64,000 nt of DNA from Utricularia gibba (taxonomy: Eukaryota; Streptophyta; Magnoliopsida; Lamiales; Lentibulariaceae), in the NCBI GenBank assembly GCA_002189035.1, contig NEEC01000009.1, positions 2,108,001 to 2,172,000 on the forward strand, in the 5' to 3' direction. The position numbers were made by a program, and so were the translations under genes. Positions 24,396-29,639 of the stretch are shown piece by piece. Within the stretch, counting starts at the first letter, position 1. Every line of letters begins with the position of its first letter. The notes under the pieces are model-generated. The model saw nothing but the letters and a program-made list of their open reading frames with translations. It did not search any database and was not told where the DNA came from.

Positions 24396-24404
24396 CAAGA
24401 GCAC
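24396..24404 (+). repeat. 9-bp target-site duplication, left copy
   Basis: CAAGAGCAC, identical to 29631-29639 on the other side of the Mutator-like element. A 9-bp duplication is the usual length for this superfamily. Confidence 0.8.
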
Positions 24405-24495
24405 CTCTAAATTTGTGTTAGAGCACTGACATCATTTTTTATTTGTCAGACAACACTTTTTTAGAAAGTGTTGGTGCAGGGCACCTGTTTCATTT
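24405..24495 (+). repeat. left terminal inverted repeat of the MULE
   Basis: Pairs with 29537-29630 in inverted orientation. The inner 24 bases are almost identical; the outer part is diverged and contains small internal palindromes (AACACTTT...AAAGTGTT). Confidence 0.8.
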
Positions 24496-25147
24496 CTCAA
24501 AATTATATTAATACTGAAATTTAGTTTTAATAATTTATTATAAGTATTATAAATAATTCAAATTTTATAAAACTAAAAATACAAAAAATAGGTATTATTT
24601 GTGAGCATTTTTAATTAATTTTATTATAAATTTGTTGTCTAAGTTTTCAAAAATTGGAAAAATTATTAATAGAGAAATTGTTTTGAAGATCTAATTTCAA
24701 AAGAAATTACAATATATCTAATTTGTACAATTTAATAAAATAATATTACAATAAAAAATAAAATAAGAATTTCATATTCAAATAACCAAATACCTATCTA
24801 AAAGTATTCATATCTATCTATAAGTTTAATTCAAATTGCATTATAGGAATTAGAAAAAAAAAGATTCTTTTGAATCATTATTATTATTCAATATTAATTC
24901 AATTAATAAAAAATTGATGAAAAATATTGTTTAACAAAAGTTTGATTTGTTTTAATTTAACATGAGTACATAGGAATTTTAAAATTAAATTAAATTAATT
25001 TTTTAATTTAAAATTTTTATTTAATCATTTTAAATTAAAAAAAATAAAATAAATCTAAAGGTGTCAATAAGCAGTAAAGAATAATGCTCATTCAATTAAA
25101 TATAATGGTTTACTTAAATAAACAATAAAGAACAATACTTATTTAAT

Positions 25148-25269
25148 AATAAAGGGTAAAGAATAACATCTATTAAATAATAAATATTAAAGAATAATAT
25201 TTACTCAATAATAAAGGATAAAGAATAACTCTTATTCAAAAATAAAGGGTAAATAATAATACTCATTTT
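25148..25269 (+). repeat. 31-bp tandem repeat, four copies
   Basis: Units at 25148-25178, 25179-25209, 25210-25240 and 25241 to about 25269, each beginning AATAAA and containing TAAA(G/T)AATAA. A shorter degenerate unit lies at about 25121-25147. It lies in the non-coding left part of the MULE. Subterminal repeats can bind transposase in some elements, but nothing here proves that. Confidence 0.75.
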
Positions 25270-25626
25270 AATCTAACAGTTATTCAAACAATCAAATTAA
25301 ATATTCATGTGACTTATATATATAAACCATGATTAATGTTATACAAAATTTATTTACATTCAACACTTGATAGATAAAAAAAAATACATATCTTCTTTTC
25401 AAGTTGTTTTATATTTTTTTTATAAAAGTTTTTAAGAAAAAAACAAACTATTCATAGTTTTTTTTGTGGCTTTTATGTTGCCATATCCCAAGGTCCCTTT
25501 AAGGGCTTACCTACGCCTTTTATGTGCAAATTCTTGTTGAACACATGAAAATAAAAGGCCATGCAACGAAATGGTTCCGTAGCCTACCCACTGAATCCTT
25601 TTTTTTTTCTTTGGAACAGCCTGGTT

Positions 25627-25795
25627 ATGCATGGACCTGGAATGACTATGCATAGATCAACCCTATTTGTTTGATCCGTTCTAGTGACAGCATTCCCATT
25701 TTTATTATCACTTCCGGTACTAGTAGGGGCAATTACCATGTTATTAACTGATCGAAACTTTAATACAACTTTTTTTGATCCTACTAAAGGGGTTA
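25627..25795 (+). pseudogene. cox1: mitochondrial cox1 fragment (numt-like) inside the MULE
   Basis: Translation on the plus strand gives GPGMTMHRSTLFV, a stop (TGA at 25672-25674), then [18 protein letters not shown] and [16 protein letters not shown]. These are the signature residues of plant cytochrome c oxidase subunit 1 around helices VI-VII. The homology stops abruptly after FFDP, where the following codons do not match cox1. Only about 55 codons are present and one expected Trp codon is TGA, so it cannot be functional. It is in the nuclear genome within the boundaries of the transposon. Whether it was captured by the element or inserted into it cannot be told from this copy alone. Confidence 0.85.
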
Positions 25796-25921
25796 ATGGC
25801 TCAATTTATTATGAAATATTTGGTATTTATTCCAAATAATACATTGATATTGCTTCAATGTTTCATTTATTTTAAACAGTACAATTTATACAACAATATG
25901 AAAATAAATATGATAAATGTT

Positions 25922-28900
25922 TCATTTTCTGAAGTTACGAAATCCACCGAAAAATCTATCCAATATGGAAACAGCTTCTTTTGAAGTAGGTTTATTGCTA
26001 GACCTTGTTCTAGTTGAAGGTTGAGAGAACTCTTGTGGATACGAAATAGAATGTCTCGCGGGAATTCGTCCTCTATAGTTATTAGGCTCTCCTCCAAAGT
26101 AATTTGAATTTTTTCCATAAAAACTTGATTGTCTATAAGTACTTGGATTTCCTTCTTCAAGATTTGATGGCATCAATATCATATCACGACTTTGAGGTGA
26201 TGAACGCTCTTCTAAACCATGATGAACATACTCTTGTTCAGCAGGAGTCTCTGTAGTTGTTTTACGTGGTTTTTGTACTCCAACAGAATGACATCCTTTA
26301 CGATTTTGAAAATCAACAGCACCCTGATAATGTGATGTCTTCTTATGGCCAACCCTTGTACTTTCATATTCAAGATCAACATGAAGTGTAAAACCAGCAG
26401 ATGGCCAATATGACTTATCTCGACAAGGGTGAACCTCATATGCATAAGTTTTCTCCATAAAACAAGTATGATAAAACTGACTTGCCCTTGTTCTTGGATT
26501 TATATTAAATTCATGACAAGCCTACAATAAGATATTGTGTTAGATATAAAAAATAAAATATAGATTAATATAAAACATACACTTTGTGCATAAAGGCATG
26601 TAAGAGATTCTGTTTGCCAAAATCCACAGTCACATGTTCCATTTCGTATGTTTACTCTAAAAGTAGTAGAATTATGAATTCCCATCTCAGTAACATTGCA
26701 CTCCATGTTTCGATCATTATATCTTTTGCAAAGAAGGTTTTGAACTTGTTCCTTGTGATGCTTGTAAACTTGTTGAATTTTTTCTGCAAAATATTTTCTT
26801 TGTGCATGATACTTAGTAGCTCTCTCTTTGCCTTTCTCAAAATAATAAAGCTCTTTTTCAAATGTGACCTGCATAATCATTTAGTTATTTATATTTAATC
26901 TCATAATGATGGTTGAAATAAGAAAATAAACCTTTGCAATAGCAGTAGGAGGAAGGTGTCGAGTTCCTTTGAGTACACCATTTAATGCCTCCACATGATT
27001 TGTCGTCATGATGGTTTTTCTTCACAAACATAAATATGTTAGGAAATTAATTTAGAATTTTAAAATGTATTAAAAATTACATACCTGTCTCCATTATCGT
27101 AAACTAATGTCCACAATTCAACGGGTATATCCATCATATATTTATATGCTCCGGGACATGAATCATAAACCGCTTGCATTCTTTCTAAGAATTCTTTTTC
27201 TGTTCATGCGACAATAGCAGACCATATGAGATCCTTAATCCGCGATGTAGACTTCTTTTTGTTGTATTTCAAGCAATTACTCCTTAAATGATATAGGCAC
27301 CATTTATGATTCCCAAGAGGAGGACTAAACTTTGGAATTTTCCCATAAGCAACTACTAAACCTGAGCCTCGGTCACTTATGATACATACTTGACGTTCAC
27401 GAACAACATGAATATCAAGATTCTTTAAAAACCATTTCCAAGATGAACCTGATTCTGAAGGCACACACCCATATACCACAGGTAATATATGCTTATTTGC
27501 ATCAATAGCTATTGCAGCCAATAATACATACTTATAACCACCGTAGAGATGCGTTGCGTCAACACAAAGCACTGGTCTGCAATATTTAAAAGCTTCTATA
27601 GCAAATCCAAAAGCCCAGAAAACATATTTTAGGAGTTGTCTCCCTTTAGCATCTATATTATTCTCAAAATTCACAATAGTACCCGGATTTTGCCGTTTCA
27701 CCTCTTCAAGATAATTTGGTAACTCTGCACATGAATCATCCCATGAACCATATTGCAACTCATATGACTTAGTCAAAGCCATCCATGCTTGCCAATAAGA
27801 AATTGTAAACTTATACTCTCTTTTGATATAAGCTTGAATTGCTCTAGCTGTTATCTTCGCATTTGTATCCAATATAAGATGGATGATGATTCGAGGAGCA
27901 ATGAAATCAGATGTCAAGTTAACATGCTTTTTAGCCAAAGAGTTTCTTATCTCACATGTATGTGGCCCATTGTATGAAGAAATCTTCCATGTGCATGTTC
28001 ATTTTTGTAGCCCTGTATTCAAAGACCAAGAACAATTTGGTTGCAGACATTTAACAGCATAAAGTGAATTATTTCCTCTTCGTAATATATACTCCCTTTT
28101 GACGTTGATATTGTATAATTTCACAGCATCCTTCAAAACTTGCTTGTCTTTAAAATGCATGTCAATTGATAGCTCTTTTGAATCTTCATTATAGTAATTC
28201 ATTGAATAGTCACTTTGCATAGCTGCATCCTGCCACATTTCTGGTGGTGAGGATGGTTCATCTTCTTGTGATTCATATTCAGGAATCTCTTCTTCAACAT
28301 CTGCTAATATATTAGAGGCACTATCTGCATGCATTTCATCTGAGTAATCATGATCAGTTGGTATATATGTCGGGTCATCTTCATCAGTGTTAACCTCATC
28401 ATAATGTTTGAAAGCTGATAAAAAAAACATGGAATATTTATTAAATACTGAAAAAAATATTTTAACCTTATAAAAATGCAAATCTAATCATTTTCTAGTG
28501 TTGGTTGTTGATAAGCCGTTGAAAAACCAAAATTAGGATCAAATGGATCAAAGTTGTCATTATAGTTGATATCTCTATTTGTGTTTTGATTCTCGAAATA
28601 TGGAGTATTCAAATTATATTCATCACTTGAAATTTTGAAATTGTAAATGTTGACAAATTATATGTAAAAAAAATAAATTTGAAATAATTAAATAATTACC
28701 ATGCTAATTAGAAGAAGAAGGAAAACCCGAACTTTCCGTATCAATATAAAGTTCAATACTCGAATCCTTGTTATGTGACATTAACAACAAATCCGTATTT
28801 GTAAGCGAAACATAGCTAATATTACTTGTATTTGCGTCGAAGAATTTGGCGGTGATCCGAATTGAATATAAATTAGGATTTATATTCAATTCTCTATAAA

Positions 28901-28946
28901 TATTCCTGAGCAATTCTCTACAATAATAATGCTTATCGAATTTCAA
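25922..28946 (-). pseudogene. MuDR-type transposase, disrupted
   Basis: Pieces of a MULE transposase in order on the minus strand. An N-terminal MuDR-like domain is at 28704-28946 (LYSIRITAKFF...LLLMS). An acidic linker and MuDR zinc-binding-like block (LKDAVKLYNINVKREYILRR, CSWSLNTG) lie at 27999-28481. The catalytic DDE domain is at about 27204-27998: VLCVDATHLYGGYKYVLLAA has the first Asp, CIISDRGSGLV the second, and NHKWCLYHLRSN follows. A SWIM-like finger at about 26590-26650 (NGTCDCGFWQTESLTCLYAQ) has Tyr where the last ligand is normally His. A Gln/Pro/Ser-rich tail ends at 25922. In-frame TGA codons at 27999-28001 and 27204-27206 interrupt it. Both could be former CGA arginine codons, but this is inference. 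The element needs a transposase supplied elsewhere to move. Confidence 0.85.
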
Positions 28947-29536
28947 TCATATTGCATGTACCCGGTATGAAGATCATTGATAAAAGAACCTCCAAAGAAC
29001 AACTTCAGAGTAACTTAGCCATTAATTGAGCAACTAAAATAATGAATGATTTATCAATGAACGCCTTCAAGGCTTTTATAGACAAAATATAGAATAACTT
29101 TGAAAATAGGAAATGTATTTTCATGATACCAAGCAAAGTAAAGAATATTTGTATTGAAATGTTATGTTTATTTTTTGGAAAAATGTCATACAAGCCGTTA
29201 AACATGAGAATTGTTTTCATTTTTGCCATCAAATTTGTTTTGTTTCACTAATATCATTAAATATATAAAAACTTCATTATTAATTGTAATAAAAAATGGT
29301 TTATTTGATTTGTCCAAACGGTTTGTAACTAAGTCTTATTTTTTACCATTTATTATTTAATAACTAAGTTGCTATTCAAATATTAAATTTTTTTTATTGT
29401 TATTTAAAACTTTGACATTAAATTTATATACAAATTACTTAAAAAACGTTATAGCAATAAATCTTTACAAATAAGACTTTTATTGATTATGTAAAATGTT
29501 AATAATTATTTTTTTTAAAACACATTAAAAAAATAT

Positions 29537-29630
29537 AAATGAAAACAGGTGCCCTGCACCAAATACTTTTCCAAGTATTGCTATGTGATAAAGAGAAAGA
29601 GGTGTGAGGTGCCTAATCCCAAATTCAGCC
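29537..29630 (-). repeat. right terminal inverted repeat of the MULE
   Basis: Inverted copy of 24405-24495. Its core reads GAAAACAGGTGCCCTGCACC on the plus strand. Confidence 0.8.
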
Positions 29631-29639
29631 CAAGAGCAC
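29631..29639 (+). repeat. 9-bp target-site duplication, right copy
   Basis: CAAGAGCAC, identical to 24396-24404. Confidence 0.8.

Follow-up and report, generated by a model that had tools for sequence, protein, structure and literature searches.

A probable complex numt spread by a Mutator-like element in the nuclear genome of Utricularia gibba

Two kinds of nuclear sequence come closest to the locus that we describe here. The first is organelle DNA in the nucleus. Complex numts and their formation by end joining are well described (PMC6215612); the joints have short overlap or filler and no target duplication (PMC6215612, PMC7037861), and nuclear organelle DNA is known for a bias toward C-to-T change that is ascribed to methylation (PMC7037861). 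The proliferation of NUPTs in papaya has been ascribed to neighbouring retrotransposons (as reviewed in PMC7037861). The second is host DNA captured by transposons. A review from 2026 on how plant transposons capture genes (PMC13317346) does not mention mitochondria or plastids, and a Mutator-like element (MULE) with mitochondrial DNA was reported nowhere in the open-access literature that we searched, which is weak evidence of novelty as most subscription papers lie outside that search.

We analyze a stretch of 64,000 nucleotides of U. gibba (hereafter, the window; positions 2108001-2172000 of contig C505 of assembly G000), where a preliminary description had placed a mitochondrial cox1 fragment inside a 5.2-kb MULE, next to a MuDR transposase on the other strand. 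Searches covered the genome assembly of 100.1 Mb in 516 contigs. The species has a nuclear genome of 101 Mb and a mitochondrial genome of about 270 kb, with a LAGLIDADG group I intron in cox1 (PMC5516982). Contig C515 (267.5 kb) is mitochondrial, as it bears the full cox1 along with a cox3 that turned up nowhere else in the genome; its cox1 is a 562-aa open frame that extends into a LAGLIDADG-type intron frame, with exon 2 after it. Our analysis of these sequences favors, with a probability of roughly 0.8, the reading that one complex numt was joined into a mudrA-type MULE, probably by end joining, and has since been carried as a passenger.

Both the position of the fragment inside the element and the transposase on the minus strand are borne out (Table 1). 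The element has the features of a mudrA-type MULE, namely the transposase domain, a 9-bp target-site duplication and terminal inverted repeats. These repeats are imperfect and about 86-88 bp long, and the ends of the copy on C409 align at 77% over 93 bp. The 20-bp core contains GGTGCAGGGCACC, and a short palindrome lies beside it at each end (24440-24490 and 29543-29580; aacactt...aaagtgtt and aatactt...aagtatt). That the subterminal array of 31-bp repeats binds the transposase would be a guess. The transposase also matches PF00872 (E 3.2e-5). It is broken in the window by in-frame stops at 27999-28001 and 27204-27206; the C409 copy has an uninterrupted frame of 547 aa over window positions 26888-28532. 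The insert lies in noncoding DNA between the left terminal repeat and the transposase gene, past the 3' end of the gene.

Table 1. Features of the element and its mitochondrial insert, in window coordinates
Feature	Position	Strand	Evidence or remark
Left target-site duplication, CAAGAGCAC	24396-24404		9/9 identical to 29631-29639
Complete Mutator-like element, 5,226 bp	24405-29630		Alignment with four other complete copies stops on both sides; flanks unrelated
Left terminal inverted repeat	24405-24490	+	20-bp core (24471-24490) 100% identical to right repeat
Subterminal array, about six degenerate 31-bp direct repeats (families D1-D3)	25066-25271	+	Left subterminal part
Whole insert, limits from empty site in C304	25463-25795		C304 aligns to 25317-25462, with alignment resuming at about 25795
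Mitochondrial piece C, 39 bp	25468-25506	+	C515:99709-99747 (minus strand); 95%, E 1.6e-8 in genome search, 1.2e-13 against fetched stretch
Mitochondrial piece A	25511-25633	+	C515:188549-188669 (plus strand); 93%, E 1.6e-45; from within a mitochondrial frame
Mitochondrial piece B, cox1 exon 1 fragment	25627-25792	+	C515:185212-185377 (minus strand); 94% identity, 166 bp, E 6.6e-67
Transposase gene, C-terminal part, 199-aa frame	25922-26521	-	No Pfam match; frame also in C244, C409, C321, shorter in C510
Transposase part, weak SWIM zinc finger	26500-26880	-	PF04434 E 0.044, below cut-off
MULE transposase domain	27204-27998	-	PF10551 E 8.2e-14
MuDR-type DNA-binding domain of transposase	27999-28487	-	PF03108 E 2.5e-5, just under curated cut-off
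Right terminal inverted repeat	29543-29630	-	Inverted repeat and copy alignment
Right target-site duplication, CAAGAGCAC	29631-29639		9/9 against left

The plus-strand translation of 25627-25795 (MHGPGMTMHRSTLFV*SVLVTAF...) reads as cox1, as had been proposed, except that a TGA in frame replaces one TGG of the mitochondrial gene. The COX1 profile of Pfam matches the frame at 25675-25839 with E 2.9e-5, which for a piece of this length falls short of the curated cut-off, and the DNA match to the host mitochondrial contig is far beyond chance. The start of the fragment stands as first given; its end shifts from 25795 to about 25792 when aligned to the host mitochondrial DNA. The cox1 area also matches 20 bp near C515:99.9 kb, which we took as chance. 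Mitochondrial cox1 encodes a Ser and a Pro here; mung-bean COX1 (7jro) and bacterial COX1 have Leu in place of the Pro, and this Pro codon is likely a C-to-U editing site. The MULE copies retain the unedited C there, and the transfer from mitochondrion to nucleus therefore probably went as DNA, not RNA.

The cox1 fragment is one of three joined mitochondrial pieces, the other two of which (25468-25506 and 25511-25633) the preliminary description had missed. Together they form an insert of ~325 bp (25468-25792) built of non-adjacent pieces of 39, 121 and 166 bp, mitochondrial-derived DNA on nuclear contigs and hence a numt. Pieces A and B come from opposite strands of C515. The joint between them has an imperfect overlap of about 7 bp, and at most 4 bp of filler lies between pieces C and A. 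The genome search found no nuclear copies of the three pieces outside the MULE copies: the mitochondrial frame of piece A has relatives only in those copies and nothing else nuclear, and the mitochondrial frame around piece C has no nuclear relative. We rejected piece A as a remnant of a nuclear Ty3 gag, given no Pfam match and genome relatives that are only mitochondrial or in MULE copies; a gag origin would be a guess. Separately, frames near cox1 on the mitochondrial contig (C515:188361-189417) have a motif like retrotransposon gag (CEYHQSVTHSTEEC), with no Pfam match, and may be what is left of an old retroelement in the mitochondrial DNA. The stretch C515:99200-100300 has ~300 bases of N at one end, possibly a gap.

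Besides the window, the insert occurs with the same limits and joints on C244 (98%), C213 (97%), C1 (94%, element truncated on the right), C409 (94%) and C321 (91%). A seventh copy, at C510:51633-58283, breaks off at its left end within the cox1 piece, where it abuts unrelated DNA; later insertions have probably divided this copy in three. The contigs with the six copies are 1.7-8.5 Mb long, and C510 is 0.38 Mb. The search that had been proposed, for members with the same ends and cox1 at the same place, thus returned six copies and one cut inside the insert. Each of the five complete copies has its own perfect target duplication: CAAGAGCAC (C505), CCCTGCCCT (C244; register ambiguous, several being possible in a repetitive site), AATGTCGCC (C213), GTTTAAAAA (C409) and GCCCCTGGC (C321). 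No similarity was found between their flanks, compared over up to 1.2 kb. Because the complete copies have different perfect 9-bp duplications and unrelated flanks, they show that the insert was multiplied by transposition, in at least five events with the insert on board; the expectation that several copies would mean acquisition and then transposition was correct. An assembly artefact is ruled out by the six independent nuclear loci.

A relative on C304, with about 82% identity, can be aligned up to the insert and beyond it, the two parts being separated there by only 3 bases, and so presents the empty site; at 18% divergence, the insert edges drawn from it are uncertain by a few bases. Compared with this empty site, equally subject to the 18% divergence, the insert is not flanked by a target duplication. 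The six copies have in common base changes from the mitochondrial source at 25503 in piece C and at 25674, 25783 and 25787 in cox1, these four being counted outside the ambiguous A/B overlap, and the change of cox1 TGG to TGA is common to all six. No cox1 match was found in more distant members (C3, C2, a second one on C244, and C4). Because the six copies share joints and base changes and C304 has the empty site, the insert is, by sequence comparison, a single acquisition ancestral to all copies. The element tree, rooted on C304, pairs C505 with C244 and C409 with C321 (support 100 each); the weakly supported remainder of the branching order (33-57%) enters no conclusion here. We consider it quite probable that the subfamily members found all come from one element that took in the mitochondrial mosaic, a “mobile numt” in the sense that the numt was multiplied by DNA transposition.

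Under the reading that we prefer, mitochondrial DNA fragments would have been ligated by end joining at a double-strand break in the element. As it sits in noncoding DNA, past the transposase 3' end and on the inner side of the terminal repeat, the insert would have left the transposition functions uninterrupted. The MULE would have acquired the ~325-bp three-piece numt once; it then transposed at least five times with the numt aboard, as the different target duplications show, and the insert has since decayed mostly by C-to-T change. The joints and the empty site, with short overlap, little filler and no target duplication, look like end joining, but the C304 relative that provides the empty site is 18% diverged. 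End joining, template switching and gap repair by the element are indistinguishable here.

The strongest alternative, which we regard as unlikely, is a Pack-MULE-like capture from a numt already in the nucleus, by template switching, by gap repair or by tandem insertion and re-mobilisation, followed by transposition. Capture of host DNA is classic behavior for Mutator-like elements, also for those that keep a transposase, such as the Kaonashi/KIU elements (PMC13317346), and a three-piece patchwork also fits template switching. However, no nuclear donor with these pieces was found outside the MULE copies, and such a donor would itself need to be mosaic, or the switching repeated. Of the two origins offered in the preliminary description, capture by the element or landing of mitochondrial DNA in it, what holds is an acquisition followed by transposition, and transposase-driven capture appears less likely than the joining of a numt. 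The mosaic could instead have formed by recombination in an ancestral mitochondrial genome and reached the element in a single transfer. Plant mitochondrial genomes are frequently rearranged. Those of U. gibba and U. reniformis are essentially without synteny (PMC5516982), and pieces A and B lie 3.2 kb apart on C515. We hold this for less likely still, since the joined form is absent from the present mitochondrial contig and piece C lies about 85 kb from B.

Between copies, the insert is more variable than the rest of the element. Between the window copy and C244 it differs by 3.1%, versus 0.9% for the left noncoding part and 2.0% for the transposase part; between the window copy and C321 the values are 10.5% versus 4.6% and 5.2%. 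Its G+C content is 39% versus 29% in the rest of the element. Counting both strands, 35 of its 130 C positions read T in one or more copies, whereas 13 of 188 A/T positions show a change of any kind. Split by sequence context, the C-to-T changes affect 13/24 CHG, 4/12 CG and 18/94 CHH sites, which are small counts. In every copy the cox1 frame is broken by stops. Because the insert varies more than the surrounding element, mostly by C-to-T, we see no sign of function and regard it as a probable decaying passenger, changing mostly by C-to-T/G-to-A. Retention for a function, for instance as regulatory sequence or in a chimeric element transcript, is very improbable: the insert is in every subfamily member examined, but one ancestral acquisition suffices to explain that, and its variability, its stops and the mostly C-to-T changes speak against a function. 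The transposase part differs by 2.0-5.8% between complete copies which, with the Arabidopsis rate of 7e-9 per site per year, suggests an age of very roughly 1.5 to 4 million years; this may be less because Lentibulariaceae evolve fast. Finally, a single numt insertion without transposition, which presence in one copy was to have supported, or copying by segmental duplication, is refuted by the six nuclear copies with the same insert boundaries and one truncated inside, on different target duplications and in unrelated flanks.

Both component processes are known, but the open papers searched contained no description of numt proliferation by DNA transposition. Numts and nupts are often present in the nucleus in more than one copy, and their proliferation has so far been put to neighbouring retrotransposons mostly by association; here the multiplication of a numt by a DNA transposon is shown directly by target duplications, shared joints and an empty site. 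Such families mislead counts of organelle-to-nucleus transfer, in which one transfer would appear as six or seven. The insert also serves as a marker for the history of its element in a very small plant genome.

The element resembles Pack-MULEs and Pack-TYPE elements in that host-derived DNA lies between its terminal repeats and was multiplied by transposition (transduplication). Pack-TYPE elements are non-autonomous (PMC8903248), whereas the element here has a transposase gene and its cargo is mitochondrial; the comparison with Pack-MULEs is therefore right as to captured DNA moving with the element and fails on the retained transposase gene. Closer in that respect are the Ulp1-bearing Kaonashi/KIU MULEs (PMC13317346), which likewise combine a transposase with captured host sequence. 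They are described as non-TIR MULEs whose captured coding domain is conserved, in contrast to the TIR ends and decaying organelle cargo described here. The insert itself is like complex numts (PMC6215612, PMC7037861) in its non-adjacent pieces, mixed orientation and C-to-T biased decay. Ordinary numts are immobile, whereas this one is borne by a transposon and was multiplied by it.
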